A stretch of DNA of 64,000 nt from Curtobacterium sp. MCBA15_001 (GTDB lineage Bacteria > Actinomycetota > Actinomycetes > Actinomycetales > Microbacteriaceae). Positions within the stretch are counted from its first letter, which is position 1; each line of letters opens with the position of its first letter. This document shows positions 21 through 10,083 of this stretch, piece by piece. A program made the translations under genes and the position numbers. The stretch lies in assembly GCF_001864835.1 (NCBI RefSeq), contig NZ_MJGI01000003.1, positions 1 to 64,000 of the forward strand, in the 5' to 3' direction. A model generated the notes under the pieces. The model was not told where the DNA came from, did no database searches, and saw nothing but the letters and a program-made list of their open reading frames with translations.

Positions 21-770
21 CTAGGCGCCGACGCGCGCCAGGAACTCGACCAGCGCCGGGTGCTGCGGGGCGTCGAGCACGGCGGCGGGCGGGCCCTGCT
101 CCACGACCTCGCCGCGGTGCAGGAACACGATGCGGTCGGCCACGTTCCGCGCGAAGTGCATCTCGTGCGTGGTCATCAGGATCGTGGAGCCCTGCTGCTT
201 GAGCTCGCGGACGAGGTCGAGGACCTCCCCGACGAGCATCGGGTCCAGGGCACTCGTGACCTCGTCGAGCAGCAGCAGCTCGGGGTCGGACGCGATCGCG
301 CGGACGATCGCCACGCGCTGCTGCTGCCCGCCGGAGAGCCGGTCCGGGTACGCCCCGGCGAAGTCGGCCAGCCCGATCCGGTCGAGCAGCCGTCGGGCGG
401 TCTGCTCCGCGGTGGCCCGGTCGACCCCGTGCACCTTCCGCGACGCCAGCGTCACGTTGTCGAGCACGGTCATGTGCGGGAACAGGTTGAACTGCTGGAA
501 CACCACGCCGATGCGCGCACGGGTGGCGTCCACGGCGACGCGGGGGTCGGAGACGTCCGTGCCCTGCAGGAGGACCTGACCGTCGTCGATGCCCTCGAGC
601 AGGTTCACGGTCTTCAGCAGCGTCGACTTCCCCGACCCGGACGCCCCGATGACGCAGATGACCTGGTGCCGGTGGAGCGTCAGGTCGATGCCGCGCAGGA
701 CCTGCTGGTCGCCGAACGCCTTGCGGAGGCCCCGGAGTTCCAGGACGGGGAGGGAGTCGTCGGACGTCAC
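21..770 (-). CDS. Polar amino acid ABC importer, ATP-binding protein
   Basis: Energises uptake of a polar amino acid at the inner face of the membrane (GlnQ/HisP family, 249 aa, normal length). Visible motifs: Walker A GASGSGKST at 42-50, Q-loop FQQFNLFPHM from 91, signature LSGGQQQR at 145-152, Walker B LLLLDE at 165-170 and a switch histidine near 205. The GTG start at 770 overlaps the permease stop as GTGA, so the two are translationally coupled. It is the last gene of a three-gene operon (binding protein, permease, ATPase). The family is certain; the exact amino acid cannot be read from the sequence. Confidence 0.95.
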   Translation of the reverse strand: MTSDDSLPVLELRGLRKAFGDQQVLRGIDLTLHRHQVICVIGASGSGKSTLLKTVNLLEGIDDGQVLLQGTDVSDPRVAVDATRARIGVVFQQFNLFPHMTVLDNVTLASRKVHGVDRATAEQTARRLLDRIGLADFAGAYPDRLSGGQQQRVAIVRAIASDPELLLLDEVTSALDPMLVGEVLDLVRELKQQGSTILMTTHEMHFARNVADRIVFLHRGEVVEQGPPAAVLDAPQHPALVEFLARVGA

Positions 771-1657
771 ACCGCACCGCCGATCTGTTCACGCCGCTGC
801 TGGCGTCGGGCGATGGCGTCCGTGACCCGGATGAGCGGCAGGCTGATCACGACGAAGAGCAGGCCGGCGACCAGGTACGGCGTGAAGTTGTAGGTGTCGG
901 CCTGCGCGATCTGCGCACTCCGGACGGCGTCGACCGCGCCGAGGATCGACACCAGGCCGACGTCCTTCTGCATGGACACGAAGTCGTTCATCAGCGCGGG
1001 CGTGACCTTGCGGATCGCCTGCGGCAGGACGACCAACCGCAGCGTCTGGGTGTGGGACAGGCCGAGCGACCGGGCGGCCAGGCGCTGGGAGGGGTGCACG
1101 GCCTCCATGCCGGCGCGGAGCACCTCGGCGACGTAGGACGAGTACGTCAGGACGATCGCGATCGTGCCCCAGACCTCGGGGGCCAGACGTGGGAAGACCC
1201 CGAGGCCGGGCAACCCGAAACCGACCAGGTACAGCACGATGATGAGCGGCAGGCCGCGGAACAGGTCGGTGTACCCGGTCGCGAGCATCCGCAGCGGGAA
1301 GAACACCGGGCTCTGCAGGCCGCGGACCACGGCGAGCAGCGTGCCGAACACCGCGACGCCGATCGATGCGAAGAACAGGATCCGCACGTTCAGCCACAGC
1401 CCGAGCAGGACGTCGGGGAACGTCGACGCGGCGACGCCGGGGTCGAAGAACGACTGCTGGACGGCGGCCCAGCCGGGGGTGTTCACGACGCCGAAGTAGG
1501 CGATCACGAGCACGACCAGCGTCGACGCGACCGACACCAGGACCGCGCGGCGGCCTCGCTGGCGGCGCCAGATGCGCCGTTCGACCTCGACCTGGCTCGG
1601 CGCCGGGGCCGCCGAGGCGTCAGTCACCGGGGCACCGGCCCCTGCTGGCACGGACAC
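767..1657 (-). CDS. Polar amino acid ABC importer, permease
   Basis: Membrane channel of the same importer (HisM/GlnP family). A 40-residue basic cytoplasmic N-terminus precedes a first membrane helix at about 41-58. The conserved coupling-loop region sits around AARSLGLSHTQTLRLVVLPQ (EAA-like) before the last helices. It is a single 296-residue subunit, so it probably homodimerises. A GTG start at 1657 lies 6 bp after the binding-protein stop; a second GTG at 1624 is possible. The 3' end overlaps the ATPase start. Confidence 0.93.
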   Translation of the reverse strand: MSVPAGAGAPVTDASAAPAPSQVEVERRIWRRQRGRRAVLVSVASTLVVLVIAYFGVVNTPGWAAVQQSFFDPGVAASTFPDVLLGLWLNVRILFFASIGVAVFGTLLAVVRGLQSPVFFPLRMLATGYTDLFRGLPLIIVLYLVGFGLPGLGVFPRLAPEVWGTIAIVLTYSSYVAEVLRAGMEAVHPSQRLAARSLGLSHTQTLRLVVLPQAIRKVTPALMNDFVSMQKDVGLVSILGAVDAVRSAQIAQADTYNFTPYLVAGLLFVVISLPLIRVTDAIARRQQRREQIGGAV

Positions 1658-1663
1658 GGTCGG

Positions 1664-2485
1664 CTACTTCAGGACGGGCGTGTTCGTCTCGGACGACAGC
1701 CACTTCTTCTGCAGCGCGGCGAGGGTGCCGTCGGAGTCGAGCTTCTTCAGGGCCGTGTCGACCTTGCTCGTGAGCGCCGACCCCTTCGGCAGCACGAACC
1801 CGAACTGGTCGCCGGAGCCGTCGGCGGGGAACTGCGCCGACACGGTGCCGTCGTCGAGCTGCGCGGCACTCATGTAGAAGGCTGTGGGCAGGTCGGTGAC
1901 GATCGCGTCGATCTGGCCGGACTTGAGCGCGAGCACGGCGTCGTCGTTGGAGTTGAACACCTGCGGGGTGACGCCGAGGACCTGCTTCACGCTGGCGATG
2001 CTCGTCGACCCGGCAGCGACGCCGATCGTGTCCTGCTTGAGCTTCGCGACCGTGGTGTCCGCGACGGCCTTCGACTTCTGCGTCGTCACGACGGCCTGCG
2101 TGGTCGTGTAGTACGGCGTCGACATGTCGACGGCCTTCTTGCGCTGCGACGAGATCGAGAACTGCTGGACGTTGAGGTCCCAGTCCTTCGGGCCCGGCGC
2201 CACCGCGCTGTCGAAGGTGCTGCGCTTCCAGACGACGTCGGACTTCGCGTAGCCCATCTCCTTCGCGACGGCGTACGCCACGGCGGACTCGAAGCCCTTG
2301 CCGGACTGCGGCTTGTCGTCCTCCACCCACGGGGAGTACGCGGGTTGCCCGGTCGCGATCGTGAGCTTGCCCTGGGTGACGGCGCCGTCCGAGCCGCTGC
2401 TGCCTCCGGCCGAGCACGCGGACAGTGCGAGCGCGGCGACCGCGGCGGTCGCCAGGACGAGGGAGAGACGGAACGATCGAGTCAC
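1664..2485 (-). CDS. Amino acid ABC transporter substrate-binding lipoprotein
   Basis: Extracytoplasmic receptor of the importer (SBP family 3, 273 aa). The N-terminus is a lipoprotein signal: MTRSF, a hydrophobic stretch, then a lipobox ending ALSACS with the modified cysteine near 24. The mature part shows the two-lobe periplasmic binding pattern (for example GVAAGSTSIASVKQVL and VTDLPTAFYM). It is the first gene of the operon, so the promoter should lie in the stretch upstream of 2486. The ligand is not assigned. Confidence 0.92.
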   Translation of the reverse strand: MTRSFRLSLVLATAAVAALALSACSAGGSSGSDGAVTQGKLTIATGQPAYSPWVEDDKPQSGKGFESAVAYAVAKEMGYAKSDVVWKRSTFDSAVAPGPKDWDLNVQQFSISSQRKKAVDMSTPYYTTTQAVVTTQKSKAVADTTVAKLKQDTIGVAAGSTSIASVKQVLGVTPQVFNSNDDAVLALKSGQIDAIVTDLPTAFYMSAAQLDDGTVSAQFPADGSGDQFGFVLPKGSALTSKVDTALKKLDSDGTLAALQKKWLSSETNTPVLK

Positions 2486-2606: not shown

Positions 2607-3083
2607 TCAGGCCAGCGTGAAGTCGTCGAACGAGAAGCCGGGCGAGACCAGGCAGCTCAGCAGGACCTCGCCGTCCCCGGGGAGCGTGCGCTGCCAGACG
2701 CCGCCCCGCACGAACGCCTGCGCGTCGTTGACCCGGTCGCGTCCGGCGTCCGGCCCGAGCGTGATCGTCGCACCCGGCTCCGGCGCGTCCCCGTCGCCAC
2801 CGAGCTGCAGCTCGACGGCGTCCGGCCCGTGCCACATCCAGATCTCGTCGCTGGTGACCCGGTGCCACGCCGACGACTCCCCCGGGGGCAGCAGGAAGTG
2901 GATGAGCGTCGCTGCGGGGCGATCGCCGCCGGGGGTCGACACCGAGGCCGGAGAGGTCCACGTCCGGACGTACCACCCGCCCTCGGGGTGCGGCTCCATG
3001 CCGAGGGCCGCGGCCCGCTTCGGGACGTCGAGCCACTCGATGAGCTCGCCGTCGACCGTCCGTCGTGCCATCTGCCCGTTCAT
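2607..3083 (-). CDS. Cupin, DUF985 family
   Basis: A small beta-barrel cupin of about 158 aa. It carries the DUF985 hallmark HPEGGWYVRTW near the N-terminus and the pattern FLLPPGESSAWHRVTSDEIW, where the family places its metal or ligand site. The function of the family is uncertain; some members resemble sugar epimerases. The start at 3083 is the first in-frame ATG outside the upstream gene; a second ATG at 3071 is equally possible. It follows the deaminase gene by 7 bp and is probably the last gene of that unit. Confidence 0.85.
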   Translation of the reverse strand: MNGQMARRTVDGELIEWLDVPKRAAALGMEPHPEGGWYVRTWTSPASVSTPGGDRPAATLIHFLLPPGESSAWHRVTSDEIWMWHGPDAVELQLGGDGDAPEPGATITLGPDAGRDRVNDAQAFVRGGVWQRTLPGDGEVLLSCLVSPGFSFDDFTLA

Positions 3084-3090
3084 CCGACCA

Positions 3091-4380
3091 TCATCCCGCG
3101 AGACGACCGTCCTCCGCGCGCACCCGTCCGCGCACCACCGTCGCGACCGCTCGTCCGGCGCCGTCCTCGACCAGTTCGGCGAGCGCGTCGGGCACCGTGC
3201 GCGCGTCCACGTCGAACACCGCGAGGTCCGCGCGGGCACCGACCGCCAGGTGCCCGATCCGGTCCGGCCCGACCGCGAGCCCCATCGCGTTGGCACCCCC
3301 GAGCGTCGCCGCCGCGAGCAGCCGCTCGTGCAGGTCGCGCTCGCCGTACCCCTGCGCGCGGGCGATCCGGTGCAGCGCGGTGACGTCGGCCATCAAGTCG
3401 AGCGACGGCGACGACGACAGGGAGTCGGTGCCGATCGCGACGGGGCTGCCCTCGCGCAGGTAGTCGGCGACGGGCGGCGGGTCGAGCCCGATGACGGCGT
3501 TCGACCGTGGACACAGGGCGACGGCGGTCCCGCGGGCACGGAGGAGCGCCCGGTCGGCGGCGGTCATGTAGACGCCGTGTGCGATGTGGCAGTCGGGTCC
3601 GAGCACGCCGAGCCGGTCCACGAAGGACGTCGCGCTCGCGCCGAACCCGAGCGCGCGCATGGCCCGGAAGGACGGCACGTTCGCCAGGTGCCAGTCGGTC
3701 CCGTGTTCGTCAGGGCCGGCGAGCCGCTCGCCCTCGAAGGCGGCCTCGCCGAGGTGCAGGTGCAGTCGCAGGCCGCGCTGCCGCACGATGTCGGGCAGCT
3801 CCAGCAGCGGCGCGACGTCGAGCGAGTACGGCGCGTGCGGTGACAGGCCGGCACCCGGGGTCATCGGGATGCGCGCGAGCTCGTCGAGGACCTGGTCGCG
3901 CCCGTGGTCCTGCCACGCCGCGTTCTCCCAGTCCATCACCTCCCAGTACGCGATCCCGCCGAGGCCGTACGTCTCGAGTGCCGTGGCCGCCTCGATGTCG
4001 GTGACGACGTCCGCGATGCTCGTCACGCCGGCCAGGAGCGATCGTCGGGCACCGTCGGCGGCCTCGGCACGCCAGTCGTGCTCGCCCGCGTAGACCGTGT
4101 TGAAGGCGGCGGCCCAGTCCTCGAAACCCTCGTACTGGCCACGACCGACACTGGCCATGCCGGTGTACTGCAGGTGCGTGTGCGCATTCACGAGCCCCGG
4201 CAGCAGCGCACCCCGCCACCGCCGCTCGGTCCAGGGGGACCTGTCGAGCTGGTCGACCACCCAGCTGCGATCGCCGACGTGCAGGATCCGCCCGTCGCGC
4301 ACGGCCACCGCCCCGTCGGCGATCGGTGGCGCGGTCATCGGGACGACGATGCGCGCCGAGTGGACGGTCGTCTCGCTCAC
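3091..4380 (-). CDS. Amidohydrolase, SAH/MTA/aminofutalosine deaminase-like
   Basis: A metal-dependent TIM-barrel hydrolase of the ATZ/TRZ (COG0402) type, 429 aa. Metal and catalytic motifs are present in order: NAHTH (HxH), SPHAPYS, HLHLGE, AHG and GTDSLSSSP. The CPRSN motif is typical of enzymes that deaminate adenosine-containing metabolites such as S-adenosylhomocysteine, methylthioadenosine or aminofutalosine. A GTG start at 4380 overlaps the preceding gene by 4 bp (GTGA), tying it to the SAH-hydrolase homologue. A deaminase acting on the same metabolite is therefore a reasonable inference; the substrate is not proven. Confidence 0.85.
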   Translation of the reverse strand: MSETTVHSARIVVPMTAPPIADGAVAVRDGRILHVGDRSWVVDQLDRSPWTERRWRGALLPGLVNAHTHLQYTGMASVGRGQYEGFEDWAAAFNTVYAGEHDWRAEAADGARRSLLAGVTSIADVVTDIEAATALETYGLGGIAYWEVMDWENAAWQDHGRDQVLDELARIPMTPGAGLSPHAPYSLDVAPLLELPDIVRQRGLRLHLHLGEAAFEGERLAGPDEHGTDWHLANVPSFRAMRALGFGASATSFVDRLGVLGPDCHIAHGVYMTAADRALLRARGTAVALCPRSNAVIGLDPPPVADYLREGSPVAIGTDSLSSSPSLDLMADVTALHRIARAQGYGERDLHERLLAAATLGGANAMGLAVGPDRIGHLAVGARADLAVFDVDARTVPDALAELVEDGAGRAVATVVRGRVRAEDGRLAG

Positions 4381-6065
4381 GCGGGGTCCCCGAAACGGGT
4401 CGTCCGGACGGTCGGCTCGCGGTCCGCCGGGTGCTCGGCTGGTCGGACGGGAGGCTCGACGCTGCTCCCGAACGCGGCGAGCGCCGCGCGGGCGGTCGCC
4501 TCGTCCACCGCGGGGTCGATCGGCACGACGGCACGGTCGAGTTCGTCCCCGCGCTCGAGCAGCATCCGCACCGCGCCGAGCTGCACGGCGAAGGACAGGT
4601 CCATGATCTCGATCGGGTTGCCCTCGGCAGCGGTGATGTTGATGCACCCGCCATCGTCCAGCACGAGCACGCCGTGGTCGGCTCCGACGAAGGTGAACCG
4701 CTCGGCCTTCCGCCCCACCGGGGTCCGGTCCGCACCGGCGGCGAGGGCCTGGTCGATCGCGACCTCCTGGTCGACCCCACCCGCGACGGCGACGACCGCC
4801 TCGGGAGCGCAGGCTCGGAGCACGTCGACGCTGATCGTGTCCGCGACGCCGGTCGCGCTCATCACCAGGGCGGCGTCGCGCACGGCCTCGACGAGCGGTG
4901 CGACGGCGTACCCGGCGAACCGCGCCTGCAGGGCGCGGACGGGGTCCGTCTCGGCGACCGTGACCCGGAAGCCGAGCGCGCGGAGCACCAGGGCGACCCC
5001 TTCGCCGACGTGCCCGAACCCGGCGACGGCCGCCGGGCCTCCTGGGCGGACCCGATGCGTGCCGGACGGCAGCGCGTCGACCAGGTCGAGCGTCGCGAAC
5101 ACCGTCGACTGCCCGGTGCCGTACCGGTTGTCGAAGAACGTCTTGGTGCGGGCGTCGTTCACGGCGACCACGGGGATGCCGAGCTCGCCACGGGCTGCCA
5201 TCACGCGCAGGGGCCGCAGGCCGCTCGTGGTCTCCTCGGCCGCGCCGAGCATGGTGGGCAGCAGGTCCGGGCGCTCCTGGTGGGCGAGCCGGATCACGTG
5301 GGCACCGTCGTCGAGCAGGAGGTGCGGCCGCGTGTCGAGCATCGCGAGTGCGAGGGCCTTCTGCTCGGTCAGCGTCGCCGTGCTGTCAGCGTGCACCGTG
5401 AGCCCCGCGTCCCGCAGCACCTCGGCCACGGCGTCGTCGGTCTCGTCGGCGTGGGCGTACACGACGACCTCGGCGCCGGCCTCGCGGAGCAGCAGGCTCA
5501 GCACGGCGGTCTTCGGTTCCAGGACCATCGCGACGCCGACCCGGGTGCCCCGCAGGAGGCCCTGGTCGCGGAGTTCGGCGGCGACCGCTCGCGACACCGG
5601 CATCGCGCGGCGCGCCCAGCGCAGGCGGGCTGCGGCGGCGGGGTCGTCCTCGGGCTCGCGACCGGTCGAGACGAGGAAGACGTCGTCCGAGGTCATCGGG
5701 ACGCCGAGCACGCCGGGTCGGACGGGGGCGACGGGGCCGAAGGCGTCCTCGTCGACGGCGGGCTGGTACCGGCCCGCGTCGACGACGAGCAGGGTGGCGC
5801 CGCGGGGGCGGTCGGTCTCGTGCTCGACGGCCGCGGTGCTGGCGTCCGGGTCGCCCAGGCACCAGAGCTGGTCGGTCGGCTCGTCGGCCGTCGCGGCTCG
5901 GGCGCCGAGGCCGGTCAAGAGGCCGTCGAGCACTGCTGCGTCGCGGGGGTCACCGCCGACGATGCGGAAGCGGCGGGCGGCGAGGAGCAGGTTCGTCGTG
6001 CGGGCGACGTGCCGCACCGCTCGGGAGGCCCATGCCAGCGTGTCGGGGTCGGGGCGCAGCGGCAT
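4377..6065 (-). CDS. Divergent S-adenosylhomocysteine hydrolase homologue
   Basis: 562 aa. Residues about 145-510 align by eye to adenosylhomocysteinase: LEPKTAVL at 182-189, LDDG at 251-254, EETTSGL at 277-283, NDARTKTFFDNRYGTG at 303-318 and an NAD-binding GFGHVGEG at 349-356. The NDAxTK..FDNRYGTGQS form resembles archaeal/Thermotoga enzymes, and Lys at the human Glu59 position fits an inosyl rather than adenosyl substrate. Odd points: a 140-residue N-terminal extension, and replacement of human-type His55, His301 and His353 by Val181, Gly430 and Asn483. It may be a paralogue with altered chemistry. It is coupled to the deaminase gene by a 4 bp overlap. Confidence 0.85.
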   Translation of the reverse strand: MPLRPDPDTLAWASRAVRHVARTTNLLLAARRFRIVGGDPRDAAVLDGLLTGLGARAATADEPTDQLWCLGDPDASTAAVEHETDRPRGATLLVVDAGRYQPAVDEDAFGPVAPVRPGVLGVPMTSDDVFLVSTGREPEDDPAAAARLRWARRAMPVSRAVAAELRDQGLLRGTRVGVAMVLEPKTAVLSLLLREAGAEVVVYAHADETDDAVAEVLRDAGLTVHADSTATLTEQKALALAMLDTRPHLLLDDGAHVIRLAHQERPDLLPTMLGAAEETTSGLRPLRVMAARGELGIPVVAVNDARTKTFFDNRYGTGQSTVFATLDLVDALPSGTHRVRPGGPAAVAGFGHVGEGVALVLRALGFRVTVAETDPVRALQARFAGYAVAPLVEAVRDAALVMSATGVADTISVDVLRACAPEAVVAVAGGVDQEVAIDQALAAGADRTPVGRKAERFTFVGADHGVLVLDDGGCINITAAEGNPIEIMDLSFAVQLGAVRMLLERGDELDRAVVPIDPAVDEATARAALAAFGSSVEPPVRPAEHPADREPTVRTTRFGDPA

Positions 6066-6119
6066 GGGTCCAGCGTAGGGCGGGCCTGCGCGCAGGGCGT
6101 CTGGTGCGTCTGGTGCGCC

Positions 6120-7070
6120 TCAGCGCAGCGCGTGGGGTGGTGGGGCGTCGCTCCAGCCGCCCGCGTCGGTCGGCGCCGGGACGGCCTGCGCCCTGGCTCG
6201 TCTCCGGTAGTGCACCTGCACGCTGATCAGCAGCACCACCCCGATGGCGGACACGATCGCCAGCCCGACGAGGTACAGCGTCGTCGCGAGACCAGCGATC
6301 GATGCCGGGACCGTCCCGTTCTGCGCCGCTTCCAGGGGTGTCCCCGTGACGAGGAACGCCAGCAGGGTCGAGATCGTCGAGTTCGAGTCGTACAGCCCGT
6401 GCAGCACCGAGACCACCACGTACGTGACGGGGACCGCCCAGGACCAGCGGAAGCGCGGCCGTCCGTGCGCGACGCCGAACAGCACCGCGCCGAGGATCGC
6501 CGTCCACAGCACGTGACCGACGGGCGACAGGATCGCGCGGAGCACCTCGGTCTGCAGCAGCGACACCAGGTCGATGCCACGTGTGGTGATCGCCGCGTTG
6601 AAGGCGTACCCGGCCGACTCGAACGCCGCGAAGCCCGCACCCACCGTCGCACCGAGCAGGGCGCCCTGCCGCGCGGTCTTCGGGCGGACGCGCCACCCCA
6701 CGACGAGCAGCAGCACGCCCTTGACGAACTCCTCCGCGAGCCCGACACCCAGGTACGTGAGTGCCCCCTGGCGCAGGTCTGACTCGAGCAGTGACGCGCC
6801 GAGCACCCCCAGGATCCCGCCGACGAAGAACGCGGTGACGAGCTGCATCGTGCTCACCGTGCCCGTCACCCGTTCGATGACGAAGAGCACCACGGTGAAC
6901 GGCACCAGGAAGCTCCCGAGCAGGATGATCGTGGGGACGAGGTTGACGTTGCTCGTGATCACCGTGACGACGATCGTCACGACCCACAGCAGGAACCCGA
7001 CCAGCAGCGTCTTCCACCACCAGCCGTGCCGGTGGTGCGGGTGGTCCACGGGGAGGTCGGATGCGCTCAT
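6120..7070 (-). CDS. PrsW family intramembrane metalloprotease
   Basis: Multi-spanning membrane protein of about 316 aa with the PrsW signature EEFVKG in a helix (metal-binding EExxK type), followed by a conserved GATVGAGFAAFES stretch and a later HVLWTA segment carrying the expected histidine. PrsW proteins cleave membrane proteins such as anti-sigma factors; the target here is unknown. The start at 7070 (MSASDLP) is preferred over longer forms because the extra N-terminal residues run into the divergent redoxin promoter. It stands alone, divergent from the redoxin gene. Confidence 0.85.
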   Translation of the reverse strand: MSASDLPVDHPHHRHGWWWKTLLVGFLLWVVTIVVTVITSNVNLVPTIILLGSFLVPFTVVLFVIERVTGTVSTMQLVTAFFVGGILGVLGASLLESDLRQGALTYLGVGLAEEFVKGVLLLVVGWRVRPKTARQGALLGATVGAGFAAFESAGYAFNAAITTRGIDLVSLLQTEVLRAILSPVGHVLWTAILGAVLFGVAHGRPRFRWSWAVPVTYVVVSVLHGLYDSNSTISTLLAFLVTGTPLEAAQNGTVPASIAGLATTLYLVGLAIVSAIGVVLLISVQVHYRRRARAQAVPAPTDAGGWSDAPPPHALR

Positions 7071-7152
7071 CAGCCCAGGATGCTCGCCCGAGCGGCTGCT
7101 GATCCGGGCCAGGGCGGGAATGTCCTGACCGTCCAGGACGTAGGTTCTCAGC

Positions 7153-7416
7153 ATGACCGACACGACGTACGACCAGGTGACCATGTTCGGCGCTGACTGG
7201 TGCCGCGACTGCCGGCGCTCGAAGGCGCTGCTCGACGGACTCGGGATCGACTACACCTACGTCGACGTCGAGCAGGACCTGTCGGCGGCCGAGCGCGCCG
7301 AGGCGATCAGCGGGCGCAAGAACATCCCCGTGGTGGTGCTGCCGAACGGCAAGCACTTCGTGGAGCCATCGGACGCCGAGCTGCGCGCCGAGCTCGAGGC
7401 GTCCGGCATCGTCTGA
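7153..7416 (+). CDS. Mycoredoxin / glutaredoxin-like protein
   Basis: An 87-residue thioredoxin-fold protein. It has a CxxC active site WCRDC (Cys17/Cys20), the cis-proline loop NIPVVVLPNG and a C-terminal FVEPSDAEL typical of actinobacterial mycoredoxin-1, which reduces mycothiol mixed disulfides in the cytosol. Typical family members are 80-95 aa, so it is full length. The CRDC sequence between the cysteines departs from the usual CPYC. It is monocistronic and divergent from the PrsW gene. Confidence 0.88.
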   Translation: MTDTTYDQVTMFGADWCRDCRRSKALLDGLGIDYTYVDVEQDLSAAERAEAISGRKNIPVVVLPNGKHFVEPSDAELRAELEASGIV

Positions 7417-7497: not shown

Positions 7498-8355
7498 GTG
7501 ATCCTCGACGCGCACCACCACCTCTGGGACCCGTCCGACCGCACCTACCCGTGGATGGACGACTCCGTCGCGCCCATCCGTCGGCGGTTCGACACCGACG
7601 ACCTGCGCGCGGCGATCGCGGGCACGGACGTCACCGCCACGATCGCGGTCCAGGCCGTGCACGACCCCGCCGAGACCGCCTGGCTCCTGACGCAGCCGTC
7701 CCCCGTCGTCGGCGTGGTCGGCTGGGTCGACCTCACCGCGCCGGACGTCGTGCAGCAGCTGGCCGCGCTGGTCGACCTGCAGCAGCCGGGCGGCCCCCGC
7801 CTGGTCGGCATCCGGCACCTGGCCCACGACGAGCCGGACCCCGACTGGCTCGGCCGCGACGACGTGGTCGCGGGTGTGCGGGTCCTCGCCGCCGCCGGGA
7901 TGCCCTTCGACCTGCTGATCCGCAACCGGGAGCACGCCGCTGCCGTGAGCCTGGTGGACGCCGTGCCCGACGGGGTGTTCGTGCTCGACCACGCCGGCAA
8001 GCCGGACATCGCCCACGACGACACCGACGTGCAGATCGCCTGGCGCGCCCGCATGGACGACCTCGCCGCCCGGCCGAACGTCCTGTGCAAGGTGTCCGGG
8101 CTGGTGACCGAGGCCGGGCCGGACTGGCAGGACCGACCGGTCGCCCGCTACGCCCGCGAAGCCGTCGAGGCGTTCGGCCCGGACCGTTCCCTCTTCGGTT
8201 CGGACTGGCCGGTGTCGACGCTGCAGGCCGACTACCGCACGGTGCTGGCCACCGCGACCGACGCCCTCGCCGACCTGTCCCACGACGAACGCGAGGCGGT
8301 GTTCCACCGGACGGCCGAACGCGTCTACCTTGCCGACCCCGCACCCCAGACATAG
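7498..8355 (+). CDS. L-fucono-lactonase-type amidohydrolase
   Basis: A 285-residue TIM-barrel amidohydrolase-2 protein with the opening motif DAHHHLWD (HxH), FVLDHAGKPD, CKVSGL and the terminal FGSDWPV metal-binding aspartate. This set is typical of L-fuconolactonase / 4-sulfomuconolactonase-like enzymes (COG3618). In this locus it would open L-fucono-1,5-lactone to L-fuconate. GTG start at 7498. Its stop codon lies inside the operator and -10 region of the next operon, so it is probably transcribed separately from the gene that follows. Confidence 0.86.
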   Translation: MILDAHHHLWDPSDRTYPWMDDSVAPIRRRFDTDDLRAAIAGTDVTATIAVQAVHDPAETAWLLTQPSPVVGVVGWVDLTAPDVVQQLAALVDLQQPGGPRLVGIRHLAHDEPDPDWLGRDDVVAGVRVLAAAGMPFDLLIRNREHAAAVSLVDAVPDGVFVLDHAGKPDIAHDDTDVQIAWRARMDDLAARPNVLCKVSGLVTEAGPDWQDRPVARYAREAVEAFGPDRSLFGSDWPVSTLQADYRTVLATATDALADLSHDEREAVFHRTAERVYLADPAPQT

Positions 8356-8361
8356 GATGTC
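8330..8361 (+). promoter_or_regulatory. Promoter with ACAT-N3-ATGT operator of the fucose gene pair
   Basis: A -35 TTGCCG (8330-8335) and -10 TAGGAT (8353-8358) are separated by 17 bp. The palindrome GACATAGGATGTC (8349-8361) covers the -10. The same core, ACATCGGATGT, occupies the spacer of the promoter at 18769-18797. Both are read here as binding sites of the FadR-type regulator encoded at 10220. Confidence 0.6.
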
Positions 8362-8437
8362 TGCACGGTCACCGAGACCGTGAAGCGGCTCGAGGGTCGC
8401 GGTCGCTGCAGCGGAGCAGCGCGGAGAGCGAGGAACA

Positions 8438-9301
8438 ATGCGGTTCGCACGACTCGGCCCGGCGGGTGGAGAGATCCCCGTGGCCATCGACCCCGACGGC
8501 ACGACGTACGACCTCCGTCCGGTCACGTCCGACGTCTCGGGGGCGTTCCTGGCCGATGACCCCGTCGCGACGGTCCGGCGCGCGATCGAGGCCGGCGACC
8601 TGCCGCTGCTGCCCGACGCCGACTCCCAACGGCGTGGCGCACCAGTGGCGCGGCCCGGCAAGGTCGTGTGCATCGGCCTGAACTACCGCGACCACGCCGC
8701 GGAGACGGGCGCGGACATCCCCACCGAGCCGATCGTGTTCATGAAGGACCCGATGACGGTCATCGGACCCGACGACGAGGTCCTGGTCCCCCGCAACAGC
8801 CGCAAGACCGACTGGGAGATCGAGCTCGCGGTCGTGATCGGCACGACCGCCCGCTACTGCGAGTCCGAGGACGAGGCCCTCACCCACATCGCCGGCTACG
8901 TCATCGCGAACGACGTCTCGGAGCGCGAGTTCCAGATCGAGCGCGGCGGCCAGTGGGACAAGGGGAAGTCCTGCGAGACGTTCAACCCGCTCGGCCCCTG
9001 GCTCGTCACGCCCGAGGCACTCGCCGACGAGGGACTCGACCCGAACGCCCTGGCGCTGCACCTCAGCGTCAACGGCGAGGTCCGGCAGGACGGCTCGACC
9101 GCCGACATGATCTTCCGACCGAGCGAGGTCGTGCGGTACCTGTCGCAGTTCATGGTCCTGTACCCGGGCGACGTGATCAGCACCGGGACCCCAGCGGGCG
9201 TCGCGCTCGGCAGCGGTGCCCCGTACCTGCAGCCCGGCGACGTGGTCGAGCTCAGCGCGGACGGCCTCGGGTCGCAGCGCCAGACGATGGGTGCCGCCTG
9301 A
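8438..9301 (+). CDS. Fumarylacetoacetate hydrolase family, 2,4-diketo-3-deoxy-L-fuconate hydrolase
   Basis: 287 aa with the FAH fold: GLNYRDHAAETG, the metal ligands in DWEIELAVVIG, NDVSERE and GDVISTGTPAGV. In the oxidative L-fucose route such enzymes split 2,4-diketo-3-deoxy-L-fuconate into pyruvate and L-lactate. The downstream gene starts on the last base of its stop (TGATG), so the two are coupled. A promoter with an operator lies immediately upstream. The family call is firm; the substrate rests on the locus, which encodes the preceding steps. Confidence 0.88.
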   Translation: MRFARLGPAGGEIPVAIDPDGTTYDLRPVTSDVSGAFLADDPVATVRRAIEAGDLPLLPDADSQRRGAPVARPGKVVCIGLNYRDHAAETGADIPTEPIVFMKDPMTVIGPDDEVLVPRNSRKTDWEIELAVVIGTTARYCESEDEALTHIAGYVIANDVSEREFQIERGGQWDKGKSCETFNPLGPWLVTPEALADEGLDPNALALHLSVNGEVRQDGSTADMIFRPSEVVRYLSQFMVLYPGDVISTGTPAGVALGSGAPYLQPGDVVELSADGLGSQRQTMGAA

Positions 9302-10083
9302 TGGCCGGCGCCGACGCGGCCAGCACTGCAGCGGCCGGCTCGCACGCCGGGATGCGCGCGATCGTCACCGGAGGCGCCTCGGGCATCGGCGCCGCGATCG
9401 TCCAGGCCCTCCGCGACCGCGGCGCCGAGGTCGCCGTGCTCGACCTCCGTGTCGACGGCCTGCCCGACGGCACCGTCGCCGAGCAGTGCGACGTCGGCGA
9501 CGACGCCTCGGTACGCCGAGCCGTCCACGCCGCGGTCCAGGCACTCGGCGGGCTCGACGTGCTCGTCAACAACGCCGGCATCGGCGCGCAGGGCACCGTG
9601 GAGGACAACCCGGACGACGAGTGGCGCCGCGTGTACGAGGTCAACGTGCTCGGAGCGGTGCGGCTGAGCCGCGCCTGCCTGCCGTCCCTGCGGGAGTCGA
9701 CCCGGGCCTCCATCGTGAACACCTGCTCGATCGCCGCGACCGCCGGGCTGCCCCAGCGTGCCCTGTACTCCGCGACGAAGGGCGCGATCGCCGCGCTCAC
9801 CCGGGCGATGGCCGCCGACCACCTGCGCGAGGGCATCCGCGTCAACGCCGTGAACCCGGGGACCGCGGACACCCCGTGGGTCGGTCGCCTGCTCGAGTCC
9901 GCTGACGACCCGGCTGCGGAGCGCGCGGCGCTCGAGGCGCGGCAGCCCCACGGGCGGCTCGTCGCCCCGGAGGAGGTGGCCGAAGCCGTCGCCTACCTGA
10001 CGAGTCCGATGGCGAAGTCGACGACGGGTGTCGACCTGGCGGTCGACGGCGGGATGCAGGCGCTGCGGCTCCGGCCGGAATGA
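9301..10083 (+). CDS. SDR dehydrogenase, 2-keto-3-deoxy-L-fuconate dehydrogenase candidate
   Basis: 260-residue short-chain dehydrogenase with cofactor motif TGGASGIG, NNAG, a catalytic Ser in NTCSIAA, and YSATK (YxxxK). The C-terminus GVDLAVDGGM is typical of classical SDRs. In bacterial L-fucose oxidation an SDR oxidises 2-keto-3-deoxy-L-fuconate at C4 with NAD+. Being coupled to the diketo-acid hydrolase (1 bp overlap) makes that the most likely role. An SDR oxidising L-fucose itself would be the alternative, but an aldo/keto reductase in the other operon can do that. Confidence 0.85.
   Translation: MAGADAASTAAAGSHAGMRAIVTGGASGIGAAIVQALRDRGAEVAVLDLRVDGLPDGTVAEQCDVGDDASVRRAVHAAVQALGGLDVLVNNAGIGAQGTVEDNPDDEWRRVYEVNVLGAVRLSRACLPSLRESTRASIVNTCSIAATAGLPQRALYSATKGAIAALTRAMAADHLREGIRVNAVNPGTADTPWVGRLLESADDPAAERAALEARQPHGRLVAPEEVAEAVAYLTSPMAKSTTGVDLAVDGGMQALRLRPE

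Follow-up and report, generated by a model that had tools for sequence, protein, structure and literature searches.

A subfamily of S-adenosylhomocysteine hydrolase homologues without the usual active-site histidines, mostly fused to the remnant of a second SAHH and encoded with an amidohydrolase and importers

What can a member of the S-adenosylhomocysteine hydrolase (SAHH) family do once the histidines of its active site have been replaced? SAHH is among the most conserved enzymes known. The question is raised by a gene in the 64,000-nucleotide stretch analysed here (the window; positions 1 to 64,000 of contig NZ_MJGI01000003.1) of Curtobacterium sp. MCBA15_001, a bacterium of a soil and plant type. 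Among the best 80 of 240 relatives, the top named ones are Curtobacterium genomes with 66-87% identity. The gene, here called SAHHx, lies at 4377..6065 on the minus strand, as do the residues and operon genes given below; it starts with ATG and encodes 562 amino acids, an SAHH-family protein with a fused, eroded partner domain. The SAHHx subfamily is real, and no description of it was seen in the open-access literature searched. As part of the best overall explanation, which is held tentatively, the sequence evidence suggests that SAHHx may be a working NAD-dependent member of the SAHH superfamily, other than an ordinary hydrolase of S-adenosylhomocysteine (SAH).

Residues 142-537 of SAHHx are identified as adenosylhomocysteinase by NCBIfam, both SAHH domains are matched by Pfam, and the solved structures related to the protein in a profile search are SAHHs. 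The AF2 model (pLDDT 90.3) finds its best superposition on solved SAHHs with 3x2f_B (VIA Z 40.7 over 400 residues at 2.4 A), and model and superposition together reveal the three-domain SAHH fold. Of two curated adenosylhomocysteinase cut-offs, SAHHx is over that of NF004005 (329.7 vs 275 bits) and under that of TIGR00936 (284 vs 497.6 bits).

Active-site residues and the standing of the subfamily

The initial annotation of this locus had claimed that three active-site histidines are replaced, and two alignments agree. Both a profile alignment to the Thermotoga maritima SAHH, which is free of gaps at the motifs, and a MAFFT alignment with the ordinary ahcY product of the same genome place Val181 (5523..5525), Gly430 (4776..4778), and Asn483 (4617..4619) on His55 (the proposed general base for water), His301 (in the gate), and His353, respectively. 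Residues were then counted in 110-111 related loci, in which some genomes appear twice (e.g., L013/L103, L008/L113, L012/L120, and L009/L114). Because 44 of the 111 loci belong to Curtobacterium or its near kin, the independent evidence is smaller than the locus count. The remaining loci come from 14 other named genera (Frondihabitans, Leifsonia, Cryobacterium, Schaalia, Humibacter, Microbacterium, Galbitalea, Rarobacter, Rathayibacter, Mycobacterium/Mycolicibacterium, Demequina, Rhizohabitans, Pseudoclavibacter, and Actinomyces), from other genomes, and from one plasmid labelled Roseateles sp. XES5. Genus labels were taken from the best 80 of 240 relatives, and one of the searches for relatives matched 49 genomes, with loci given for 30. 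Outside the actinobacteria, SAHHx was seen only on this plasmid (L034, NZ_CP084754.1, labelled UNVERIFIED_ORG Roseateles), the true host of which is unsure. In Curtobacterium flaccumfaciens (L091, CP121450.1), SAHHx and the neighbouring amidohydrolase gene look frameshifted, possibly through a sequencing error.

Site 55 is never His (0/110), but the valine of the window is not universal: the subfamily has Val in 59 loci, Thr in 30, and Phe in 21. At site 301, His is likewise absent from all 111 loci; tblastn reads Gly in 101 and a gap or a different letter in the other ten, of which MAFFT gives Gly for eight; of the last two, L113 repeats L008 and L151 has Met. The Gly-His-Phe gate is replaced by Gly-Gly-Val in most copies. 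Site 353 is Asn in 110 loci and Gln in one. The loss of His353 is real but matters least of the three, because in the accessible parts of PMC4647836 and PMC7765604 this residue contacts the base through main-chain atoms only. No new conserved histidine fills the lost sites: the sole invariant one in an alignment of the subfamily, His262, has an equivalent in canonical SAHHs (MAFFT), and a second alignment contains no invariant histidine at all. A plain ahcY label was rejected for SAHHx, as the His55/His301 pair is absent and the TIGR00936 cut-off is missed.

The NAD-binding motif, the Asp/Glu residues, and the Lys-Asp-Asn of the active site, which the initial annotation had listed as kept, are indeed retained. 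The glycines of the NAD site stand in a GFGHVG motif (MAFFT), and Asp130 and Asp131 (Asp252-Asp253 of SAHHx, 5307..5312; 111/111), Glu155, Thr157, Asn181, Lys186, Asp190, Asn191, and Asn346 are fixed in all 110 or 111 loci; Glu156 is kept in 108 of 111, with Gln in three (L005, L007, and L115). The lysine reported at the Glu59 position, as in enzymes that act on S-inosylhomocysteine (SIH), is Lys185. It belongs to a hypoxanthine-type base motif, Glu183-Pro184-Lys185 (5511..5519), whose Glu and Lys are found in 110 of 110 loci; the subfamily motif is [V/T/F]xExK, i.e., HxExK minus its His (0/110). Moreover, two residues have been gained: Arg259 (5289..5291; 110/111), at what we take to be the site of human Asn137, and Ser281 (111/111). 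In a comparison alignment, Arg259 occurs in 30 of 31 SAHHx proteins, 8 of 9 paralogues from Rubrobacteraceae (see below), and none of 11 canonical enzymes; the corresponding counts for Ser281 are 31/31, 8/9, and 0/11.

For mouse SAHH, the available text of PMC4647836 proposes His55 as the general base that activates water, names Asp131 as the donor of a proton to C4', and lets His301 steady the intermediate and gate the channel; it also calls the Gly-His-Phe gate completely conserved in the SAHHs of different species. According to the portion of PMC10978960 at hand, N1 and O6 of hypoxanthine are contacted in euryarchaeal enzymes by the Glu and Lys of HxExK. Set against these published roles, what SAHHx has lost are the residues that handle water and form the gate; those that serve 3'-oxidation, C4' deprotonation, and the recognition of hypoxanthine are still there. 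Changed chemistry is plausible, since both residues said to hold and activate water are gone.

The proposal of a new subfamily has held up: SAHHx is monophyletic (100/100), and its defining residues are fixed. Across nine comparisons between the window gene and others from Curtobacterium, the core has a dN/dS of 0.17-0.41 and the extension one of 0.21-0.54; both are under purifying selection. Gene decay was rejected on account of this selection, the lack of His at the three sites throughout the 110-111 loci, and the fixation of the other catalytic residues. A very divergent SAHH homologue on an Ensifer plasmid (L039), in which Ala-Glu stands for Phe189-Asp190 and Asn for His353, forms the longest end branch of the SAHH tree.

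The genome of the window also encodes an ordinary ahcY (G000:C10:49889-51325; 586.8 bits vs the cut-off of 497.6) with all three histidines (MAFFT). Among 49 SAHHx genomes of the order, ahcY exceeds the TIGR00936 cut-off in 23 and is split into two pieces in one (G366); 25 appear to be without it at that cut-off. As ahcY is present in only some of these genomes, SAHHx neither replaces nor requires it.

The N-terminal extension as the relic of a second SAHH

The initial annotation, right about the subfamily and the lysine motif, had noted an N-terminal extension of 140 residues but had missed its nature. It did not mention the partner gene or the operon described below. Residues 1-140 (5646..6065) are a degenerate SAHH NAD domain, the worn-down remainder of a second SAHH, derived from a partner gene. 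When profiles were compared in hhalign, that of 48 extensions aligned with the beginning of the NAD domain in that of eight canonical SAHHs (47 columns, Prob 80.3, E 1.4e-5). Reversal of the canonical profile lowered Prob to 0.6, and 12 column shuffles lowered it to at most 0.2; of 15 single proteins, 14 give at most 2.9, the fifteenth (99.9) being SAHHx, which contains the extension. By our own reading of the AF2 model, residues 7-132 run helix-strand-helix-strand-helix-strand-helix-strand-strand-strand, the order of the NAD domain (306-469) minus one strand and two helices. TIGR00936 scores 18.4 bits (positions 189-241) in a Demequina-type extension and 22.5 and 21.9 bits (192-272 and 192-279) in two separate partner open reading frames (ORFs).

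Relic and core are fused, with one stop-free frame running through both, in 96 of 111 loci. The other 15 have no extension; in 14 of them a separate partner ORF lies directly upstream, and in L118 only 156 nt are available there. A partner relic, fused or separate, is therefore found in 110 of 111. The separate partners differ in how much of the enzyme they retain. On the XES5 plasmid, the partner (SAHH1) is an intact SAHH of 426 amino acids with all three histidines; that of L151 (genome G637), 55% identical to it, is also intact and has all three. The Rhizohabitans partner (368 amino acids) is still matched by the Pfam NAD domain (64.9 bits) and has lost the catalytic motifs, and shorter partners of 184-289 amino acids occur in Microbacterium, Mycobacterium/Mycolicibacterium, Rathayibacter, Cryobacterium, and two further genomes.

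The fused and separate forms were linked by two hidden Markov models (HMMs); each was trained on many forms of its own kind, and hence only cross-matches count as evidence (E-values for a small set, Z = 300, --max). The E-values of the fused-form HMM lie between 1.6e-7 and 5e-16 for 11 separate ORFs and at 2.4e-5, 8.7e-5, and 1.6e-2 for the other three, those of Rhizohabitans, L151, and XES5, respectively. The separate-form HMM matches 95 of 96 fused relics at 8.6e-4 or better (one at 3.8) and the SAHH1s of XES5 and L151, on which it was not trained, at 2e-13 and 1e-18. Among 1138 reverse-strand and 111 reversed pieces, neither HMM has a match below 1e-3 (best 0.032). An unrelated new domain was rejected as the identity of the extension in view of the hhalign result, the TIGR00936 matches, and these cross-matches with their controls. 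A Foldseek search with a partner model (pLDDT 78.4) gave, by our count, 42 SAHHs among the 50 matches listed, to which generic Rossmann similarity contributes. A tree joins the Rhizohabitans partner to SAHH1 of XES5 (95/96), places both beside the ordinary SAHH of Rubrobacteraceae (93/93), and sets SAHHx apart as a clade of its own (100/100).

The partners form a graded series, from intact SAHH through a dead full-length protein and an NAD-domain remnant to a fused remnant. The extension is the last remnant of a second SAHH subunit and is probably kept as the structural half of a mixed oligomer; a mixed oligomer with the partner as its structural core would explain why the NAD domain has survived longest. 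Possibly, though this is doubtful, SAHHx and its partner make up an obligate two-part SAHH: one copy would have lost the histidines that handle water and turned into a "dry" eliminase or isomerase of nucleosides, and the other would have been pared down in stages from a complete enzyme to a Rossmann scaffold and then fused.

The operon and its parallels

In 85 of 85 loci, SAHHx is followed on the same strand by a gene for an amidohydrolase (AMH) of the nucleoside/purine deaminase superfamily. In the window (3091..4380), its GTG start overlaps the SAHHx stop (GTGA). The distance is at most 400 nt in 73 loci, 632 nt in the frameshifted L091, and 3.0-3.3 kb in 11 loci, in which the importer genes lie between. 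The superfamily includes deaminases of 5'-methylthioadenosine/SAH (MTA/SAH), 5'-deoxyadenosine, 8-oxoguanine, and aminofutalosine. AMH is below all the curated deaminase cut-offs shown (best 118 vs 532 bits), reaching 108.6 of 522 bits for PRK07228 and 41.5 of 779 bits for PRK15493. Its His73, His213, Glu216, His272, and Asp323 are invariant in 21 of 21 sequences and His71 is present in at least 90%; these are presumably the metal and catalytic residues of an amidohydrolase. A mycobacterial AMH (L099:13211-14482) begins the HxH metal motif with Tyr instead of His (NAYTHLQ).

The translational overlap of SAHHx and AMH, together with the loss of His55 and His301, would fit a non-catalytic sensor of nucleosides or NAD that regulates AMH or the importer, for which AHCYL proteins offer a likeness. 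We consider such a role quite improbable, since the remaining catalytic residues do not vary across 111 loci (save for Glu156, kept in 108), SAHHx is under purifying selection, and it was the partner that decayed, not SAHHx.

Next in the window come genes for a Cupin_5 (DUF985) protein (2607..3083; 124.4 bits) and, by domain and family profiles, for an ATP-binding cassette (ABC) importer: a solute-binding protein of family 3, the amino-acid type (1664..2485), a permease of the HEQRo type (767..1657), and a GlnQ-like ATPase (21..770). The Cupin_5 gene recurs in 73 of 85 loci. Importers were found in 77 of 85: amino-acid ABC in 66, energy-coupling factor (ECF) in 10, and sugar ABC in one. At the thresholds used, no importer was found in the other eight, four of which have less than 1.5 kb of downstream sequence; one of the eight, L115, has a sugar-type solute-binding protein about 4 kb further on. 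All ten ECF loci contain homologues of the fused EcfAA', S, and T components. The S component is PF07155 by Pfam in L089, L099, and L106; in L089, the fused ATPase and a CbiQ-type T component were identified. By homology, S genes were also found in L097 and L156. The XES5 operon includes an additional nucleoside hydrolase.

Several of these genes would also suit an SIH hydrolase: SAH would be imported, AMH would convert it to SIH, and SAHHx would release inosine and homocysteine, with Arg259, Asp253, and an ordered water in place of the His pair. The amino-acid type of importer in 66 of 85 loci, the nucleoside hydrolase of XES5, and the intact, full-His SAHH1 beside SAHHx in two operons (XES5 and L151) are in keeping with it, as are the Glu and Lys that SIH enzymes have in their base motif, present in all 110 loci, and the known pathway of DadD and SIH hydrolase (SIHH), which shares the two-enzyme logic (motif meaning and pathway as given in the consulted part of PMC10978960). 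However, the proposed general base His55 and the intermediate-stabilizing His301 are missing from all copies read, and the gate called completely conserved is Gly-Gly-Val in most of them (residue roles and gate from the sections of PMC4647836 available), which makes an SIH hydrolase unlikely.

A search at Rfam gathering scores found no riboswitch in the window or in seven related loci. Among the recurrent operon genes of 42 loci, none beyond SAHHx and its partner, AMH, the cupin, and the importers could be tied to a pathway; of three more recurrent ORF groups, two overlap known genes on the opposite strand and one is a group of homologous major facilitator superfamily (MFS) transporters, found in five genera at no more than 9 kb from SAHHx (e.g., L077:16101-17633, L084:11961-13862, and L095:14113-15585). 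Just upstream of SAHHx, the window encodes a PrsW-family membrane protease (6120-7184), which among the loci listed adjoins SAHHx only in Curtobacterium and near kin. TACGCT at 6072..6077 (minus strand), 6 nt ahead of the SAHHx ATG, is by eye a weak candidate for a -10 box and might point to a leaderless mRNA. Further on, 7498-10083 holds genes like those for L-fuconolactonase (199/400 bits) and 2,4-didehydro-3-deoxy-L-rhamnonate hydrolase (314/500 bits), followed by an ORF that by eye resembles SDR proteins; the stretch is probably a cluster for deoxysugar catabolism.

Related arrangements occur outside the subfamily. Rubrobacteraceae genomes contain an SAHH paralogue with Pro, Gly, and His at sites 55, 301, and 353, and many also carry a full-His copy (230 genomes matched, loci given for 30, L121-L150; residues were read there and in further loci). 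The paralogue of G447 is identical to the Rubrobacter radiotolerans copy. Like SAHHx, the Rubrobacteraceae paralogue has lost His55 and His301 and gained Arg259 and Ser281 (8/9), mostly with Val431, and is linked to an ECF importer (11 of 16 genomes with the paralogue); unlike SAHHx, it keeps His353. A clade of the two has weak tree support (67/43), and the other grouping is not rejected (p-AU 0.196) in a tree from which two long rows (oth_L039 and part_L106u) were dropped and in which SAHHx was thinned to 11. A homologue of the L155 S component (by Pfam QueT, 59.4 bits, and PF07155, 40.2 bits) is present in 11 of 19 Rubrobacteraceae genomes searched, and in all 11 it adjoins the His-poor SAHH. 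In those 11 paralogues, site 55 is Pro in ten and Ala in one; site 301 is Gly in eight and Ala in two, with one uncovered at a contig end (G597). EcfA and EcfT are also present in three paralogue loci read fully and absent from one full-His locus read. On the haloarchaeal plasmids L038 and L161, QueT, EcfA, EcfT, and SAHH (adenosylhomocysteinase) genes stand in a row; His is present in the SAHH of L038 (MAFFT). Being found with SAHHx, in Rubrobacteraceae, and on haloarchaeal plasmids, the coupling of ECF importers to SAHH-family enzymes is recurrent.

A proposed pathway and its meaning

Together, SAHHx, AMH, and the importer suggest an undescribed route for the use of imported nucleosides; no SAHH subfamily tied to a deaminase or an ECF importer was noticed in the open-access literature searched, among at most 20 papers listed per search. 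The explanation that we favour, with somewhat restrained confidence, is a salvage pathway in three steps: uptake, deamination to a nucleoside of the inosine type, and NAD-dependent cleavage or rearrangement without the water chemistry of SAHH. The ABC or ECF importer would take up a 5'-substituted adenosine-type nucleoside, at best guess SAH or a close relative, from which AMH would strip the 6-amino group. SAHHx would then bind the resulting hypoxanthine nucleoside (Glu183 to N1 and Lys185 to O6) and oxidize its 3'-OH with tightly bound NAD+ (Lys308, Asp312, and Asn313), and Asp253 would take the C4' proton. A final addition of water is not expected, because His55 and His301, which hold and activate it at C5', are missing. 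The last step would be only the elimination of the 5' group, for which a good leaving group is needed, or a rearrangement of the sugar, perhaps with Arg259.

With SIHH (EC 3.13.1.9) and the T. maritima and euryarchaeal SAHHs, SAHHx shares the fold, the NAD site, the catalytic Asp, Lys, and Asn residues, the Glu and Lys of HxExK, and a deaminase as pathway partner. It differs from them in that the His of HxExK, the His-Phe of the gate, and the hinge His are all replaced, in that the deaminase-like gene and an importer lie in one operon, and in the fused relic partner. Canonical ahcY (EC 3.13.2.1) belongs to the same superfamily and has the same fold, NAD binding, and 3'-oxidation residues, but differs in the base motif, the His pair, and Arg259. 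As a precedent, there is one SAHH homologue with a substrate other than SAH, the angustmycin dehydratase AgmF, which uses bound NAD+ and whose His56 and His299 were speculated to help in the removal of the 6'-OH (PMC8599513, in the part accessible). AgmF, however, is biosynthetic rather than a salvage enzyme and keeps its His pair; an AgmF-like dehydratase was rejected for SAHHx, in which these sites are V/T/F and G.

That SAHHx has lost the 5' contacts but not the residues that serve 3'-oxidation and deprotonate C4' is also what a different sugar chemistry through the 3'-keto form would predict, namely epimerization at C4' or C2' or release of the base, with no leaving group at C5' (e.g., on 5'-deoxyinosine). 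The 5'-deoxyadenosine deaminase among the nearest curated models of AMH points the same way. Yet the ancestry of SAHHx lies among 5'-cleaving enzymes, and no operon gene was found that obviously uses an epimerized nucleoside; we regard this chemistry as improbable.

Several observations weigh against the favoured salvage pathway and the origin proposed for the extension. AMH is assigned as a deaminase by superfamily only, because it is far below every curated cut-off, and the Cupin_5 gene is unexplained. The extension profile matches the SAHHx core profile with Prob 18.6 only (E 1.3e-3), and SAHH1 of XES5, as a single sequence, scores 2.9, the highest of the 14 single proteins. The first Foldseek match of the partner model is a 5-ketofructose reductase, and the tree position of the Rhizohabitans partner is unsure because of its long branch. 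In Rubrobacteraceae, 5 of 16 paralogue genomes (G447, G479, G501, G575, and G586) are without the S component at E 1e-5, and the paralogue on the R. radiotolerans plasmid sits between a HAD hydrolase and a bile acid:sodium symporter. Moreover, since the SAHH1s of XES5 and L151 keep all His, the mixed complex could once have been a plain SIH hydrolase, and where ahcY is missing SAHHx might have a role in ordinary SAH turnover.

The XES5 gene of the SAHHx type is annotated as adenosylhomocysteinase, and the window protein passes one curated model of that enzyme (NF004005); more SAHHx genes are therefore likely to be misnamed. A large subfamily under selection without His55 and His301 makes the roles of these histidines directly testable, and in the series of partners one can follow, as is rarely possible, how a subunit shrank into a structural domain. 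If SAHHx and its partner were indeed a two-part SAHH, they would represent a new enzyme class for imported, deaminated nucleosides, with its stages alive in different genera. SAHHx points to unknown nucleoside chemistry and to an unknown nutrient.

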